NCBI GenBank assembly: GCA_903939765.1
Contig: CAJAIK010000113.1
Coordinates: 1-57,421, forward strand
Length of the DNA: 57,421 nt
Direction: 5' to 3'
Source of the DNA: an uncultured Chlorobiaceae bacterium
GTDB lineage: Bacteria; Bacteroidota; Chlorobiia; Chlorobiales; Chlorobiaceae
Made by a program: the position numbers and the translations under genes
Notes under the pieces: model-generated
What the model was told of the DNA's origin: nothing
The model's database searches: none
What the model saw: only the letters and a program-made list of their open reading frames with translations
Shown: in pieces, positions 42,027 to 57,421 of the stretch
Layout: each line of letters begins with the position of its first letter
Position numbering within the stretch: position 1 is the first letter of the stretch

Positions 42027-42362
42027 TTAAAGAGAGCCGATATGCTCGTCGAGTTTCGTTGCAATCGTATTTTTCGGCAGAGCTCCAACCATCTGGTCGA
42101 CAACCTTGCCATTTTTAAAAACAAGAAGGGAAGGGATGCTTCTGATACCATACTGGGCTGCAATCTTTGGATTCTCGTCAACATTGAGCTTCGCCACAAC
42201 GGCCTTTCCGGCGTAGTCACTGGCAAGTTCCTCAATAACAGGGCCAAGGATTTTACATGGGCCACACCATGGAGCCCAGAAATCAACCAGCCCAACTTTA
42301 TCAGAATCAAGAATCTCTGCCTTGAAATTCAGCTCTGTTGCCACAAGATAGTTATCACTCAT
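42027..42362 (-). CDS. Thioredoxin (first of a tandem pair, next to trxB)
   Basis: A 111-aa thioredoxin with active site WAPWCGPCK and the cis-Pro loop RSIPSLLVF. I place the start at the ATG at 42362 (MSDNYLVATELNF), which aligns with the second thioredoxin; the in-frame extension to 42398 is not shared by the paralog. The trxB gene starts 24 bp downstream, so a trx-trxB operon is likely. Confidence 0.93.
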   Translation of the reverse strand: MSDNYLVATELNFKAEILDSDKVGLVDFWAPWCGPCKILGPVIEELASDYAGKAVVAKLNVDENPKIAAQYGIRSIPSLLVFKNGKVVDQMVGALPKNTIATKLDEHIGSL

Positions 42363-42398
42363 TATTTTATTCACCGGTTTAGATTTAACAGCACTCAC

Positions 42399-42692
42399 AA
42401 CTTTACTGAAAGAAATATATCGGCACCAACCTTTAAAGACTCTGAAGTCAAGCTTAAAAAACCCCTAAAAAACCATCCCCTATTCCCGGTTGAAAACAAA
42501 GCGCAAAAAATGCACGCGCAGAGAGGGATCGTTGTGATGATTTCGTAAAGGCCGCAACAGCCCCCGATGGTATCGGGCCTGCATACAGGTAACTCTGCAC
42601 CACGATGGGCTGTGAGAATTGAATAACAAACAGGATAACCCGCTATCCCGGCAGTTGGCAGAGGGATGGCGGGTATCATTGTTCCCGGTCTA
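42399..42692. other. Spacer between the two thioredoxin genes
   Basis: No gene was seen here. A small hairpin at 42563-42577 (CCCGAT/ATCGGG, loop ggt) and a run of A residues near 42460 are the only features; the hairpin may be a weak terminator of the upstream paralog. Confidence 0.4.
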
Positions 42693-43022
42693 TCAACCGA
42701 TATGCTCGTCGATTTTCTTTGCGATCATGTTTTTCGGCATAGCTCCAAGCATCTGGTCAACAACCTTGCCATTTTTGAAAATAAGAAGGGAGGGGATGCT
42801 TCTGATACCGTACGCGGCAGCACTGTTGGGATTATCGTCAACATTAAGTTTTGCAATAACAGCCTTTCCTGCGTAGTCACCGGCGAGCTCCTCAATAACA
42901 GGGCCGAGCATCATGCATGGGCCACACCAGGCTGCCCAAAAATCAACCAGCGCCACTTTATCGGAATCAAGAATCTCGGCCTTGAAATTCAGGTCTGTTG
43001 CCACAAGATATTTTCCACTCAT
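42693..43022 (-). CDS. Thioredoxin (second tandem copy)
   Basis: A 109-aa thioredoxin with active site WAAWCGPCM and RSIPSLLIF. It is highly similar to the copy at 42027-42362 along its length (both open with a short tail plus YLVATxLNFKAEILDSDKV). The change from K to M after the CGPC motif and P to A before it are the main active-site differences. The pair arose by tandem duplication. Confidence 0.93.
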   Translation of the reverse strand: MSGKYLVATDLNFKAEILDSDKVALVDFWAAWCGPCMMLGPVIEELAGDYAGKAVIAKLNVDDNPNSAAAYGIRSIPSLLIFKNGKVVDQMLGAMPKNMIAKKIDEHIG

Positions 43023-51975: not shown

Positions 51976-52111
51976 CATGTAAAAAAAATTTTCCAGCCTT
52001 TCCTTGTCAGTTTTTCCCTGTCGAGTGAGCTTACTTTTTCAGAGTTTCAGAGAACAGAGTGTCAGAAATTCAGGAAGAAAAAGGACTGGAACGAATCACT
52101 CGAAAACCCAT
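51976..52111. repeat. Copy of the variable-protein 3' end and downstream flank
   Basis: This stretch matches 53323-53452 closely, including 'ggactggaacgaatcactcg' and much of the non-coding flank beyond the stop codon. The shared block covers the last 12 codons and about 95 bp after the stop, so a whole gene end was duplicated, not a coding motif alone. Confidence 0.85.
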
Positions 52112-52165
52112 GACGTAGTTGATGACGTAGTCCCGCAGATAGTAGTCGAGATAATCGGTCGTAAA
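52070..52165 (-). pseudogene. Orphan 3' tail of a second DGR variable protein
   Basis: On the minus strand the end reads DYYLRDYVINYVMGFRVIRS then SPFSS and a stop. The last 12 residues (GFRVIRSSPFSS) are identical to those of the NACHT-FGE protein at 53410-56442, but the 12 residues before MGF differ. Ten of those 12 codons are NNY (GAC, TAC, TAT, GAC, TAC, GTC, ATC, AAC, TAC, GTC), the footprint left when adenines in AAC/AAT template codons are randomised. Upstream of about 52165 similarity stops, so the rest of the gene has been lost. Confidence 0.75.
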
Positions 52166-52300
52166 GAGAAAATGGAGAGAGGGTGACTGGTAAAATGAAA
52201 CCCCTTCACCGTTAAGCCCTCCTCATTTTTGATGATTTTTTGCTATTATTACTTTTACAGCCAGCAGAACGATTTACTAACAAAAAACATGTTGAGGCTC

Positions 52301-52519
52301 ATGATTTCAATACATGATGTTTACAGGAGTGCTTTAGCCCTGAACCTGCGGGAGCAAGCGGAGCTTGTTGACAGGTTGATTGCTCAGCTTGATCAGCCAG
52401 ACAGAATAATTGATGAGTTATGGATGAATGAAGCAGAAAGTCGGATTAATGCTTTTGATCAAGGGAAAATAAAAGCCATCCCTCTGAACGAGGTACTTGG
52501 AAAGTATTTTAATGCGTGA
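52301..52519 (+). CDS. Antitoxin of the ParD/RelB-like addiction-module type
   Basis: The start at the ATG at 52301 has GAGG 4 nt upstream; earlier in-frame ATG codons at 52289 and 52229 lack one. The 72-aa product (ALNLREQAELVDRLIAQLDQ, then EAESRINAFDQGKIKAIPLN) matches the putative addiction-module component family seen with RelE/ParE toxins. It overlaps the toxin gene by 8 bp. Confidence 0.85.
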   Translation: MISIHDVYRSALALNLREQAELVDRLIAQLDQPDRIIDELWMNEAESRINAFDQGKIKAIPLNEVLGKYFNA

Positions 52520-52808
52520 TAATATCCAATTTCTGGAAGTTGCCCAATCTGAGCTTGACGCAACCATAGACTACTACGACCATGAGTTGTCGGGTTTAGG
52601 CAAGATTTTTCTTACTGAGGTACTTCATGCTCTTGATCGGATAGTGAATCATCCTGATGCATGGCATCCGTGTTCACTGCGCACCAGGCGATGCCAGCTT
52701 CGTCGTTTTCCTTATGGAATAATTTACCAGATACGCGAACAAGACATTCTTGTTATTGCCATAGCAAATCTCCACAGAAGGCCATCCTACTGGAATGATC
52801 GTCTTTGA
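52512..52808 (+). CDS. RelE/ParE-type toxin
   Basis: A 98-aa protein starting at the ATG at 52512 (MRDNIQFLEVAQSELDATID). It has the RelE/ParE fold landmarks YYDHELSGLGKIFLTEVLHA, RRCQLRRFPYGIIYQI and IAIANLHRRPSYWNDR, the last being the typical C-terminal region with a basic residue needed for toxicity. It is paired with the antitoxin upstream and sits between DGR remnants. Confidence 0.88.
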   Translation: MRDNIQFLEVAQSELDATIDYYDHELSGLGKIFLTEVLHALDRIVNHPDAWHPCSLRTRRCQLRRFPYGIIYQIREQDILVIAIANLHRRPSYWNDRL

Positions 52809-52823
52809 GTGCTTCTGCCCCCC

Positions 52824-52937
52824 TCACAACCCCAACGAGCGCAAAAGGTTGCGGGTATTGGCCTGCCGGGCGTGGCCGACCCAACCTGAAAGGCTCTGCC
52901 GCAAGTTTTCATGCTTGGCAAGCAAGGTGCATTGCAT
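52824..52937 (-). pseudogene. C-terminal stub of a reverse transcriptase (DGR-type)
   Basis: The 37-codon frame opens MQCTLLAKHENLRQSLSGWV and continues GHARQANTRNLLRSLGL. The LxxSLSGWxGHARxANTxxL pattern resembles the end of the thumb region in DGR reverse transcriptases, as I recall those sequences. It begins 5 bp after the stop codon of the Avd pseudogene, so the template repeat and most of the polymerase gene must have been deleted between them. The call rests on a short segment and is tentative. Confidence 0.6.
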
Positions 52938-52941
52938 CCTC

Positions 52942-53263
52942 TCAACCGCCAAGCATTTTTCCCAACTCGGCAATCTGCCGGCTCCCGAATTCGTATGAGG
53001 CAAGATTGATGAATTGCATCTCAAAACTCATGCGCAACAGGAGGCGCAGGCGCGTCAAAACCTCATCAGCCTCTGCCAGCGCCGGGCGCTTGTGGTTGCG
53101 CATGTTGGCAATGGCAACAAGTTCGGTAAATTCAAGCACGGCATTTTAGAGGGCGAACAGCAATGCTGAACCGATAGCTCTTCGGGAACTTTCCGGTATG
53201 GTGCAGCAGCCATTTCGAAAAATCAAAGGCTTTTTTGACGATCAGCATTTCGTGATTTGGCAT
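52942..53263 (-). pseudogene. avd: Avd accessory protein of a DGR, frameshifted
   Basis: Starting at the ATG at 53263 it reads MPNHEMLIVKKAFDFSKWLL, then HHTGKFPKSYRFSIAVR. An extra C near 53160 shifts the frame. In the other frame the sequence continues LEFTELVAIANMRNHKRPAL, AEADEVLTRLRLLLRMSFEM and ends ELGKMLGG. The sum of both frames is a 106-aa four-helix-bundle Avd, the basic protein that assists the DGR reverse transcriptase. Compared with the copy at 57190-57421 it has one inserted C and a G-to-T change. The gene is therefore inactive unless frameshifting occurs. Confidence 0.85.
52976..53173. repeat. Direct repeat copy 1 (Avd sequence)
   Basis: Nearly identical to 57224-57421 over about 198 bp, with a handful of differences including the frameshifting C. 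Together the two copies flank a 4-kb segment carrying the variable-protein gene and a toxin-antitoxin pair. Homologous recombination between them would delete that segment. Confidence 0.9.
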
Positions 53264-53322
53264 GAGCAAATGAACAATTGACAGTTGACAATGGAGAAGC
53301 GCCGACTTCAAGGTTTTACAAA

Positions 53323-53452
53323 AAAAATTTCCAGCCTCTCCATCTCAGTTTTTCACTGTCGAGTGAGCTTGCTTTTTTTCAGATTTCCAGAGAACAGAGT
53401 GTCAGATTATCAGGAAGAAAAAGGACTGGAACGAATCACTCGAAAACCCACG
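53323..53452. repeat. Variable-protein 3' end, partner of the copy at 51976-52111
   Basis: Shared with 51976-52111 at high identity, and covers the last codons of the NACHT-FGE gene and about 85 bp of downstream sequence. In a DGR the sequence just after the variable region holds the initiation-of-mutagenic-homing site. Conservation of that flank between the two copies fits this role. A short CACT-CGAC-AGTG hairpin lies within it. Confidence 0.75.
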
Positions 53453-56442
53453 CTGAAGAAGCTGATCCTCGGATAGTAGTAGTTCCGGGAGGAGCAGCGC
53501 AGGGCATCAGCTTTATCACTATAATACGCGCTGCCCCGTATTGCACGCCAGCCATTCTCTTCATTATACCAGTCGTCCGTCCACTCCCACACATTGCCCG
53601 CCATATCATGCAACCCTTCAGGTGTAGCACCTTCAGGATAACGACCTACCGGTGTTGTGGCACCTTCATTGTTGTTATAATTCGCATGTCTGGTTGATGG
53701 CTCTGCACTCCCCCATGGGTAGACTCTGTTCTCTTTCCCCCCTGCCGCGTATTCCCACTCCTTTTCAGTTGGTAACCGATAGAGCGCTGTATTTTCTCCA
53801 TTACTCTCAAGCAGGGAGATCCAAAAGCAATACGCTTGAGCGGCATACCAGCTCACCCCAACGACGGGCTGATCATCTTTGTTGAAGCGTTTGTCATCAT
53901 CCTTATATGAAGTAAAACATTTGGAGAGCGATTCTTCTCCCCGCAGAAAATCGCTGAACCCCTTGATTTTCTTTGCCTCTCGCTGCAATCGTACTGTGTA
54001 ACGCTCAACGGGAAGCACGGTTGCAAATTCGATATCCTGGGCCGCCAGATAGTTGATAAAGCGGCGATAAAGCTGGTTCGTCACGGTGTATTTGGCCATA
54101 GAGAGATCCTGCACCCTCTCCTGCTTCTTTGTCAGCGAAAAGATAAAAGAACCGCCTTTGATGAGAATGTACTCTGCCCCAATCTTGTCACGCAACACTG
54201 CTGTGGTGGCATGAACTTCACGAAACTTCATCACCATGGCAAGCGCTTCCGGCTTGCCAATTGTTTTCAAACACTCCATGATGTATCGCTGCCGGTTCGG
54301 CGTTGTTGCCGGATCAAGCAATTTCGTCTGCAAGGCATCAATTTTGCGTTGTGGCGCCTCCTCGACGAGGGTAATCAGCAAATCCTGCTGCTTTGGCGTC
54401 AAAGAGTCTGTGACTGGTGAATCAAAGAGCTTCTCCATGAAGGAATCAAAAATCCCGGCGTCATCAACATGACCAATAAAAAAACGGAGCGGCTCCTGCC
54501 ACCAGTCGTCACCGAAATGGGTGACCAGTTCGTCAAGAGAACCTCCCCTGTGCATGGTTTTTTCAAGCTGAACTCCCGCCAGGTACTCACGGAAGGATTT
54601 ATGACGAAACACATACTCTTTTTCACCGTACTCCACCAGCAGACCAGCCCGGTCAACAAGGTTCCGGCAAAAATCTGTGGCAGGCAGTGAATTGTAGAGC
54701 GTATCGAGCAGCTCCTGCATTTTCTCCTGCATTTTCTCCCGACCTGCCTCATCTTTTTTCAACTCCTCCTGCATCCAGAGCGAGACAGGGCTCAGCACCC
54801 GCCTCGCATCTTCTGCGGCAAGTAACGGGTCAATTCCTCTCCGGCGGTCACGATAATCGAGCATATAGTTCAATGCAGCGTCGTAGAGCTTTAAACGACT
54901 GCCCGGCAGATACTGGCGATCTTTCCAGAGCATCGCCATAATCTGCAACAACAGCGGAACCCCTGCCAATGATTGTAAACTCCGGTTTTTCTCCTGAGCG
55001 AGAAAGTCAAGAATTGCATCGGCTTTTTTGGCTGCTTGCTGTTCCTGATGGATGCGCCACTCCGCCTTGTCTCCGGTGGCGGGTGGAATTTCGCCGAGGA
55101 AAGCGGCCTTGAACCAACGCTGTAAAAACTGCGCCTGCTGCTCTTTGGAAAAGTCCATAATGTCGGCACGCAGATGGCTTGCTTCAAGCTCAATGCCATC
55201 GCCTTTCCTATAGCCTGTGCTCCTTGAGGTCACCACAAACCGGACAGAGGTAAACCTGCCAACCATCTTGTCAATCCAGCCACAAACCGCAATCCGGTCA
55301 TGGACATCACTGATTTCATCCAAACCATCAAGAAGCACAAGCGTTGAGGGCTCCTCAAGCCAGCCGGAAAAGAGCGTATCGGGGAGAACAAGGAAATTTT
55401 TTTCACACCATGCAGAGAGCGTTGCGGGCAATGAAGCGTAGCCGGTATCACCCCTTCTGAGTTCACGCAACGGAAGGTAAAAAACATTGACCGGTTCGCT
55501 GAACCCGAACTCCTTGTGCCGACCGTTGTCGAGACAGGAGAGCGCATAGTATTTGAGCAAGGTTGTTTTTCCTGAACCGGGATCGCCAATAATGAGCAGC
55601 AATGGATGATGCTGAAAAACAAAACGCATCACCTCTTCAGGAGTGCTGGTACAATCCTTTTGGTGAGGCACACACTGATCATCTGCGCTGTAGGGACGTG
55701 TTTCGCAGCGCGACGAGCCGGAAAGAGTTAACGACACAAAGGTATCGGAGAGCTTTACTGAAAAATTTGTAATGGCGGGAGAACCTGTCAGGGTGATGTT
55801 ACCCAATTGGCGTTTCAGGGTTGACTGGTAGAGCTTGAGGGCCGAAGCCGCATCAAGCTCAGGCAAAACGACAATCCGGTCTTGAACTGCGGCGTCCGGC
55901 CCAAACCACCGGGGTATCTGGATGTCGAGATGAGTCAGAAGGTTTTGACGAAATATATCAGGACTATCATATTCCCACAACAGCGAATACCCTTGCATCG
56001 ATGCTTTAAATTCAGCAAGTCTCGTCAACTGGTCGGCGAACTCCATTACCTTGCCGGAATCGGAGAGATTCAACGGGTAGTTGGCTTTGGAAAAATAGAG
56101 CATGACCGGCTTGCGATAACTCATTAACCTTTGTACCTCTTCAACAGCTCCTCCCGGAGCTACACCTGTATCAGTACCAATCCGTGTCCAAAACATCCCG
56201 ATGGCGCAATCGCACGCATCAACAATCTGCTTATTAAGAATTCCCTGCACCCTCTCACCACTTTCAGGTGCCCCGTGCGATTCCCACAACACTGGCTCAA
56301 GCATGAGGCCGGACTGTGGATGACGGATATGCCAGGTGCAAATTACTTCATCGGCTATTTTCCGCTCTGCGGCAACGTCGGAGGGTGAAGCGACGAGAAC
56401 TTTTACGATTCGAGCCAGGTTGTCAGGCATTGGGCATTTCAA
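53410..56442 (-). CDS. DGR variable protein: N-terminal sensor-like domain, NACHT NTPase, C-terminal FGE/C-type-lectin domain
   Basis: A 1,010-aa protein. Residues about 10-120 (VKVLVASPSDVAAERKIADE, DCAIGMFWTRIGTDTG) form a DUF4062/TIR-like N-terminal domain. The NACHT NTPase has Walker A IIGDPGSGKTTLLKYYAL (286-293 core), Walker B STLVLLDGLDEISD, and a helical domain with ENRSLQSLAGVPLLLQIMAM-like text (EKNRSLQSLAGVPLLLQIMA). The C-terminal 250 residues are a formylglycine-generating-enzyme fold (YRLPTEKEWEYAAGG, HDMAGNVWEWTDDWYNEENG, WRAIRGSAYYSDKADALRCS). The final RNYYYPRISFFSVGF segment has nine NNY codons among the eleven at 987-997. FGE-fold proteins with such tails are known DGR targets, and NACHT fusions of them are proposed conflict-system sensors. 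The start could also be the ATG at 56430. Confidence 0.92.
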   Translation of the reverse strand: MKCPMPDNLARIVKVLVASPSDVAAERKIADEVICTWHIRHPQSGLMLEPVLWESHGAPESGERVQGILNKQIVDACDCAIGMFWTRIGTDTGVAPGGAVEEVQRLMSYRKPVMLYFSKANYPLNLSDSGKVMEFADQLTRLAEFKASMQGYSLLWEYDSPDIFRQNLLTHLDIQIPRWFGPDAAVQDRIVVLPELDAASALKLYQSTLKRQLGNITLTGSPAITNFSVKLSDTFVSLTLSGSSRCETRPYSADDQCVPHQKDCTSTPEEVMRFVFQHHPLLLIIGDPGSGKTTLLKYYALSCLDNGRHKEFGFSEPVNVFYLPLRELRRGDTGYASLPATLSAWCEKNFLVLPDTLFSGWLEEPSTLVLLDGLDEISDVHDRIAVCGWIDKMVGRFTSVRFVVTSRSTGYRKGDGIELEASHLRADIMDFSKEQQAQFLQRWFKAAFLGEIPPATGDKAEWRIHQEQQAAKKADAILDFLAQEKNRSLQSLAGVPLLLQIMAMLWKDRQYLPGSRLKLYDAALNYMLDYRDRRRGIDPLLAAEDARRVLSPVSLWMQEELKKDEAGREKMQEKMQELLDTLYNSLPATDFCRNLVDRAGLLVEYGEKEYVFRHKSFREYLAGVQLEKTMHRGGSLDELVTHFGDDWWQEPLRFFIGHVDDAGIFDSFMEKLFDSPVTDSLTPKQQDLLITLVEEAPQRKIDALQTKLLDPATTPNRQRYIMECLKTIGKPEALAMVMKFREVHATTAVLRDKIGAEYILIKGGSFIFSLTKKQERVQDLSMAKYTVTNQLYRRFINYLAAQDIEFATVLPVERYTVRLQREAKKIKGFSDFLRGEESLSKCFTSYKDDDKRFNKDDQPVVGVSWYAAQAYCFWISLLESNGENTALYRLPTEKEWEYAAGGKENRVYPWGSAEPSTRHANYNNNEGATTPVGRYPEGATPEGLHDMAGNVWEWTDDWYNEENGWRAIRGSAYYSDKADALRCSSRNYYYPRISFFSVGFRVIRSSPFSS
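53449..53530 (-). other. Probable DGR variable region of the NACHT-FGE gene
   Basis: Codons for residues 987-997 are NNY with only two exceptions (CCG, AGG), as expected when AAC/AAT codons of a template repeat are randomised at their adenines. The invariant GFRVIRSSPFSS end follows. Upstream, residues YYSDKADALRCSS may belong to the same region. A template with A at those positions was not found in the window, so the assignment is by codon pattern and comparison with the tail at 52070-52165. Confidence 0.7.
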
Positions 56443-56499: not shown

Positions 56500-56796
56500 T
56501 TATAGATCAAGCTCATCCAAACGCAGTAAACGGTGCCCTTCAAAAACGGTGAGAATTTCAACATGCAGTGAAGTGCGCCTATACACTATTCGGTAATTCC
56601 CGACAAGTATCTCCCTGATTTCAGAATAAGAGAGCTCAGGAACCACTCTTCCCGCATCAGGATATATACCGGTCAAATCGCCTTTTTCAAGAAGGTGATC
56701 AATAAAATCAGAAGCCCTGTCCGAATTATCCTGAGCGATAAACCCTTCAATTTCAGCAAGTTTTCTGACCGCTTCGCTTGTCCAGACCACCTTCAT
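56500..56796 (-). CDS. RelE/ParE-type toxin
   Basis: A 98-aa protein with VVWTSEAVRKLAEIEGFIAQ at the N-terminus, then PDAGRVVPELSYSEIREILV and YRIVYRRTSLHVEILTVFEG, the RelE/ParE core. It differs in sequence from the toxin at 52512-52808. It overlaps its antitoxin by 4 bp (ATGA) and lies 58 bp before the variable-protein gene on the same strand. Confidence 0.88.
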   Translation of the reverse strand: MKVVWTSEAVRKLAEIEGFIAQDNSDRASDFIDHLLEKGDLTGIYPDAGRVVPELSYSEIREILVGNYRIVYRRTSLHVEILTVFEGHRLLRLDELDL

Positions 56797-57083
56797 TCTT
56801 TTCTGGAAGCTCTTTTTTCAGCAAGCATCTGCCGTACCTCATCCGTATCATAGTGTTCCCCGGATTCTGCCGCTGCCAAGCCACGCTCAACAGATTCGGA
56901 AAATTGTTTGCGGTACACCAATGCGTCATATTCAACAGGTGAAAGCAGAACTCCGGCCGGCCGGCCATTCTGGGTAATAATCAATGGATGACCAGTAACC
57001 TGTGCTTTTTTCAGGCAGGCAGAGATCCCGGCCTTAAACTCACCCAGCGGAATAATATCGCTTGATATTTGAATGTTTTTCAT
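56793..57083 (-). CDS. Phd/YefM-family antitoxin
   Basis: A 96-aa antitoxin: IIPLGEFKAGISACLKKAQV, then HPLIITQNGRPAGVLLSPVE, the Phd/YefM DNA-binding and dimer region. The C-terminal ESGEHYDTDEVRQMLAEKRA is the toxin-binding tail. It is translationally coupled to the RelE toxin. The frame appears whole. Confidence 0.9.
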   Translation of the reverse strand: MKNIQISSDIIPLGEFKAGISACLKKAQVTGHPLIITQNGRPAGVLLSPVEYDALVYRKQFSESVERGLAAAESGEHYDTDEVRQMLAEKRASRKE

Positions 57084-57189: not shown

Positions 57190-57421
57190 TCAACTCTTCC
57201 ATATACCACTTGATATTGTTATTTGCCGGCTCCCGAATTCGTATGAGGCGAGATTGATGAATTGCATCTCAAAACTCATGCGCAACAGGAGGCGCAGGCG
57301 CGTCAAAACCTCATCAGCCTCTGCCAGCGCCGGGCGCTTGTGGTTGCGCATGTTGGCAACAGCAACAAGCTCGGTAAATTCAAGCACGGCATTTTCGAGG
57401 CGAACAGCAATGCTGAACCGA
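57190..57421 (-). pseudogene. avd: Second Avd copy with replaced C-terminus (runs off the window)
   Basis: The frame enters from the window edge with RFSIAVRLENAVLEFTELVA, intact where copy 1 is frameshifted, and continues through VLTRLRLLLRMSFEMQFINL to FGSRQI. There homology stops and the frame ends after TISSGIWKS, instead of AELGKMLGG. The lost tail carries the conserved Gly-Gly end of Avd. The N-terminus lies outside, so it could be an active gene with a new tail or another pseudogene. Confidence 0.75.
57224..57421. repeat. Direct repeat copy 2 (Avd sequence)
   Basis: Partner of 52976-53173; the identity starts at 'tgccggctcccgaattcg' in both and extends to the window end, and may continue beyond. 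The junction at 57224 marks where the Avd C-terminus was cut. Confidence 0.9.

Follow-up and report, generated by a model that had tools for sequence, protein, structure and literature searches.

A NACHT and FGE-like DGR target gene of an uncultured Chlorobiaceae bacterium and its template on another contig

Closest described systems

DGR-diversified sensors of the NACHT/nSTAND1-CLec kind, with modular N-termini, degenerate loci and action in trans, were described by Dore et al. (2024, PMC10907252), who also mentioned Chlorobi. The stretch analysed here, a contig of 57,421 nucleotides from an uncultured Chlorobiaceae bacterium (hereafter the window), contains a gene that resembles the clade 5D DGRs of Thiohalocapsa PB-PSB1 (DGR 3 and 6; PMC10907252) in its central NACHT/STAND domain, its C-terminal FGE/CLec domain with a variable repeat (VR) and its modular N-termini. 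Further points of likeness to the Thiohalocapsa elements are degenerate loci with diversification in trans, the perfect match to the template outside adenines and the hypothesis of an antigen sensor (PMC10907252). In contrast to them, a single template (TR) fits five targets on four contigs in the present genome, eight VRs were counted in a sister genome (G014), and the effectors are of the DUF4062 type; the likeness is one of architecture and does not extend to the clade of the reverse transcriptase (RT).

DGRs with several VRs have been recorded in green sulfur bacteria, to which the present genome most likely belongs, as the named relatives retrieved with the window protein are uncultured Chlorobiaceae. 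The parts of the DiGReF survey of 2012 (PMC3521204) drawn on here list two VRs in Chlorobium phaeobacteroides DSM 266 and four in Pelodictyon phaeoclathratiforme BU-1. As in the window system, several paralogous targets share a template, and one BU-1 VR lies outside any gene, comparable to the relic described below. Unlike for the window system, neither NACHT nor N-terminal effector domains are given in those parts; the survey was confined to a stretch of roughly 11 kb at each RT, so remote targets were left uncounted. In Treponema denticola, according to the sections of PMC4891356 considered here, as many as seven targets depend on a single TR. All have the FGE fold and the majority lie remote from it; unlike the window protein they are mostly lipoproteins, with no NACHT domain reported in these sections.

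A preprint of 2026 (PMC13174449) reported that DUF4062 acts in defence against phages as an NADase of the TIR-like kind. The window protein is like Swarozyc and the other DUF4062 TIR-like NADases in having a DUF4062-like module, and DUF4062 adjoins NACHT in human TEP1, NWD1, NWD2 and NPHP3. Swarozyc, unlike the window protein, senses the phage portal by an auxiliary domain of its own and has neither a DGR nor a hypervariable tip (PMC13174449). A word search detected no mention of DGRs in PMC13174449 and none of DUF4062 in Dore et al. (PMC10907252), and in a literature search by title and abstract for a link between DGR, TIR and NADase the terms occurred only apart. In view of Dore et al., DiGReF and the T. 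denticola precedents, DGRs acting on NACHT sensors are already known, multi-target DGRs in relatives included. The link between DUF4062 effectors and DGRs and the natural allele pairs reported below are apparently new, and the window family joins two recent lines of work, on DGR-diversified NACHT sensors and on DUF4062 NADases, which are not linked in the papers considered here.

The target gene and its domains

We read the window gene, with a probability of about 0.75, as a DGR target that is diversified in trans and encodes a sensor of the NLR type, its effector TIR-like and its tip hypervariable, probably directed against phages. The gene is an intact ORF at 53410-56442 (-), its domains being assigned from Pfam and PADLOC matches and Walker motifs. 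Counted from its TTG start it has 1,010 codons for amino acids; an ATG four codons in, at 56430, is the probable start codon and yields 1,006 aa. An earlier note on this DNA had proposed a NACHT ATPase joined to an FGE/C-type-lectin-like C-terminus, and both domains were recovered by Pfam. The NACHT NTPase domain occupies residues 282-446 (55105-55599 (-); PF05729, E 1e-14) and has both Walker A (GDPGSGKTT) and Walker B (LVLLDGLDEI). The FGE-sulfatase-like (C-type-lectin) domain covers residues 771-1004 (53431-54132 (-); PF03781, E 2.6e-42) and was also identified by alignment and structure. With an N-terminal effector-like domain, a Walker A/B STAND NTPase and a C-terminal sensor-like domain, the protein has an NLR-like layout.

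The positions aligned with the FGE catalytic cysteine pair are not Cys in the window domain. A role as formylglycine-generating enzyme was therefore rejected, and the domain is regarded as a binding domain. Its model reached a pLDDT of 75, with low values in some loops close to the VR. It shows the C-type-lectin/FGE fold known from variable proteins of DGRs, and the VR is placed C-terminally in it. TvpA of T. denticola (PDB 2y3c, Z 18.9) has the same fold and was matched along with TaqVP (5vf4, Z 10.7) and Mtd (1yu3, Z 10.2).

The N-terminal domain (residues 10-176, 55915-56415 (-)) had been described in the same note as DUF4062/TIR-like. Pfam gave no match to the N-terminus even at E<1, PF13271 (DUF4062) included, and a direct Pfam assignment to DUF4062 was dropped; the description is supported indirectly, by PADLOC, by sister proteins and by a weak model resembling TIR and nucleoside-deoxyribosyltransferase (NDT) folds. 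PADLOC matched these residues to the phage-defence candidate PDC-S60 (E 1.9e-19). Sister proteins scored between E 4e-19 and 0.037 for DUF4062, those of the window's own N-terminal type between 0.0014 and 0.037, all below the cut-off. In an alignment with the DUF4062 sister targets a Glu is invariant in the column formed by -AVEEV-, -ITELE- and -QELE-, the first being the window's version. The weak model of the domain (pLDDT 61) had a TIR domain (4c6t, Z 11.7) and DNPH1/NDT (Z 11.6) as its top structural matches; since Foldseek returned mostly generic Rossmann-like matches, only the structural re-alignment was used, and cautiously. By analogy with the DUF4062 NADases, the domain would most likely act by NAD+ hydrolysis.

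Toxin-antitoxin pairs, of the Unstab_antitox/ParE and PhdYefM/ParE types, flank the target gene among DGR fragments at 52229-52808 (+) and 56500-57083 (-), and may stabilise DGR cassettes. Elsewhere in the window, a tandem repeat of 102 bp lies at the beginning of the contig (1-502), and at 42037-42996 there is a direct repeat of 300 bp, the copies of which are 86% identical and 660 bp apart.

The variable repeat, its template and the retroelement

A DNA search of the genome with the 3′ end of the gene matched five FGE genes, the window gene included, and gave one short match beside an RT gene (G000:C97:4885-4975). The template sequence there, AAAGCTGATGCCCTGCGCTGCTCCTCCCGGAACAACAACAATCCGAGGAACAACAACAACAACATGGGTTTTCGAGTGATTCGTTCC, is AAC-rich and a typical TR. 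The VR of the window gene, 87 bp at 53428-53514 (-), matches it (G000:C97:4889-4975 (-)) at 76 of 87 positions. All 11 mismatches fall on template adenines, of which 11 of 26 are changed, and the 61 non-adenine positions are all identical. Adenine mutagenesis of a template, as suggested in the earlier note, is thereby borne out, and the adenine-differing repeat that was sought was located on contig C97, not beside the gene in the assembly. A terminal A>G just outside the 87 bp is common to all targets; if counted, 12 of 12 mismatches are at template adenines. As the match has an E value of 8e-25, and as adenines make up 28 of 91 template positions (hypergeometric P 1e-7 for 12/12), chance was excluded.

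The core hypervariable codons, for residues 987-997 (53452-53484 (-)), correspond to template codons that are mostly AAC or AAT. They read AAC TAC TAC TAT CCG AGG ATC AGC TTC TTC AGC, so the count of nine NNY codons in eleven that had first drawn attention to them is correct. Chance or codon bias behind this run was rejected on account of the TR. That the gene is an ordinary FGE paralog, diverged without any retroelement and with a codon bias producing the NNY run, is hardly credible: FGE domains are indeed common in this genome (23 PF03781 matches), but this account is contradicted by the template, the RT, Avd, the adenine-directed mismatches in related genomes and the allele differences confined to VRs.

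At its 3′ end the VR has an invariant segment, GGTTTTCGAGTGATTCGTTCC (53428-53448 (-)), which is identical in the TR and all own-genome VRs and, judged by sequence, probably represents the segment for initiation of mutagenic homing (IMH). With a viral origin in mind these 21 bases were compared with IMG/VR, which gave no exact match; divergent viral versions may exist. A hairpin or cruciform just downstream of the VR is a feature of the Bordetella phage BPP-1 and is not counted as defining for cellular DGRs. No perfect stem of at least 7 bp was found within 180 nt of the VR in the window gene and in 17 of 19 other targets. The stretch after the VR (53300-53427 (-)) is conserved, with repeated CTGA-like words and, about 100 nt on, a run like GAAATTTTTTTTG. 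It has equivalents in most targets of several species, has no canonical hairpin and is possibly a recognition element for retrohoming.

Contig C97 (5.3 kb, minus strand) contains avd, the TR, the gene of a 344-aa RT (C97:3662-4696 (-)) and one target gene; the RT ORF and the TR (C97:4889-4975) are intact. The RT has the motifs IGNLTSQ and YVDD, and its closest PDB match (E 2e-52) is 8ub7, named "Reverse transcriptase", which we take to be the DGR RT of a Bordetella phage. Avd scored 103.6 bits against the NCBIfam equivalog NF033474 (DivGenRetAVD, cut-off 80), the gene being read across a 141-bp self-overlap of the contig. An avd fragment at the end of the window (57221-57421 (-)) shares an identical piece of 141 bp with each end of C97. 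Going by this repeat overlap, the window gene may have an intact avd-TR-RT-target cassette, perhaps in tandem, as its immediate upstream neighbour.

Downstream of the window gene the order is an avd/RT remnant, a toxin-antitoxin pair, a copy of the C97 spacer between RT and target, and a VR stub. The avd pseudogene (52943-53248 (-)) has 97% identity to the corresponding region of C97 avd and is interrupted by a one-base frameshift. It is fused to a 3′ remnant of the RT gene about 50 codons long (52796-52939 (-); 92% nucleotide identity to C97:3634-3777), the protein of which matches RT residues 295-344 (E 1e-15). The TR and the remainder of the RT have been deleted from this local cassette. 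The spacer copy (52151-52380 (-)) is 91% identical to C97:3407-3637 and represents the region upstream of a lost second target. Next to it, at 52070-52125 (-), the final 12 residues of the window protein (GFRVIRSSPFSS) recur. The earlier note had taken this for a second tail sharing these residues, which it does, but a second target gene was rejected here, as comparison of VR, TR and tail identified a relic of a second VR and gene 3′ end adjoining the spacer copy. Spacer copy and VR stub together are the scar of a second cassette from which the target gene was deleted.

With the local avd frameshifted, the RT reduced to a stump and the TR lost, the window gene would be diversified only in trans. 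The same decay fits the alternative of a frozen target, diversified in the past and not rewritten since the local TR and RT were lost, so that its VR differences would be historical. We consider this quite unlikely, since all 61 non-adenine VR positions still fit the remote TR although a third of the sequence upstream now differs, and since the RT ORF and TR on C97 are intact. In the 300 bases that precede the VR the window gene is only 64-68% identical to the sister targets; this is most simply explained if the VR was rewritten from the TR after the gene bodies had diverged. From the perfect match outside adenines we infer that the window gene is currently being diversified. TR, RT, Avd and the adenine-specific outcome are visible in the sequences. 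Following the known DGR mechanism, RT and Avd would copy the C97 template RNA and make errors at its adenines; the resulting cDNA would replace, in trans, the VR of the window gene and those of four or more sister genes.

Sister targets, natural alleles and further elements

The C97 template fits the window gene and four other NACHT-FGE genes of the same genome, and 71 of the 75 VR mismatches in these five targets are at template adenines. Ten other genomes of the genus were found to have this RT as well, at 77-84% identity, together with a TR that matches. Among 25 VRs from seven genomes, compared by gapless alignment, template-adenine sites were changed in 298 of 628 cases and other sites in 6 of 1547 (P about 1e-177, indicative only because VR sites are not fully independent). 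The bases at the changed sites were T (140), G (128) and C (30), a T/G-rich and C-poor outcome that is unexpected under fully random incorporation.

Two genomes, G006 and G023, have identical TRs and share two orthologous targets. The first pair differs at 12 of 3,099 nt, 11 of them template-adenine sites of the VR; the second differs at 18 of 3,060 nt, with 12 at such sites and one elsewhere in the VR. Together, 23 of the 30 differences are VR sites at template adenines. In the comparison of homologs that the earlier note had proposed, VR variation is thus almost limited to template adenines, and these orthologs differ almost nowhere else; the allele pairs show recent natural diversification in the family of the window gene. 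They are receptors nearly identical save at template-adenine sites in the tip, joined to effectors with a predicted and measurable activity (NAD+ loss), by which the idea that DGRs diversify immune sensors becomes testable.

Of 32 sizeable targets, 31 have Walker A and the remaining one is truncated; a strict Walker B pattern was found in 25. N-termini are more variable. Of the five own-genome targets, three have N-termini unlike that of the window protein, and one of these three is membrane-anchored. Across the targets there are a DUF4062-like type (ASPGD), a second TIR-like type (IGHSDDAS) and classical DUF4062 (E 4e-19); other targets have membrane-anchored or metallophosphoesterase N-termini, and one giant protein combines ParA-like, Mrr-nuclease and DUF4062 parts. 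Swapping is directly visible, as unrelated N-termini are found on bodies 84-89% identical.

This range of N-termini (TIR-like, membrane-anchored, metallophosphoesterase, ParA/Mrr) would also suit a DGR-diversified NACHT receptor for kin, surface or environmental ligands that regulates cell fate or signalling, its N-terminus being a signalling module, and signal-transduction roles have been proposed for cyanobacterial DGR targets (PMC7517822). We judge a non-phage sensor of this kind rather unlikely, as NACHT with TIR-like/DUF4062 or Mrr-type nuclease N-termini is typical of antiphage conflict systems (PMC10907252, PMC13174449) and the window N-terminus matches a phage-defence candidate, PDC-S60. 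In the preferred reading, an anti-phage sensor, the FGE/C-type-lectin tip with the VR would bind a ligand that varies, probably a protein of a phage or of other foreign origin. Upon binding the NACHT ATPase would oligomerise, and the DUF4062/TIR-like domain would stop the infection, most likely via NAD+ hydrolysis. Counting against this reading are the weak N-terminal model, the missing DUF4062 Pfam match of the window protein, the different N-termini of three own-genome targets and the absence of a stem after the VR. The immune-receptor-like sensor proposed in the earlier note is supported as regards its diversified surface by the template, RT, Avd and adenine-limited variation; its immune function we infer. 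We suggest tentatively, at somewhat less than even odds, that the targets form a green sulfur bacterium's repertoire of phage sensors of the NLR type, in which effectors can be exchanged (TIR-like NADase, membrane-anchored, phosphoesterase and nuclease-linked) and all tips are rewritten from one template RNA, a hypermutating and adaptive-like set of receptors that diversifies in nature.

At least two further DGRs, each with TR, RT, an FGE target and adenine-biased mismatches, were found in the genome at G000:C87:42106-46059 (L053), where the mismatches were 15 at adenines and 0 elsewhere, and at G000:C16:47695-50239 (L054). A third TR-like element with two targets, at G000:C116:9256-12400 (L056), had no RT found beside it. 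Finally, a 1,639-aa FGE protein at G000:C47:17696-18430 (L058), similar to the targets in the NACHT region and without a TR-matching VR, is possibly a stable, undiversified paralog.
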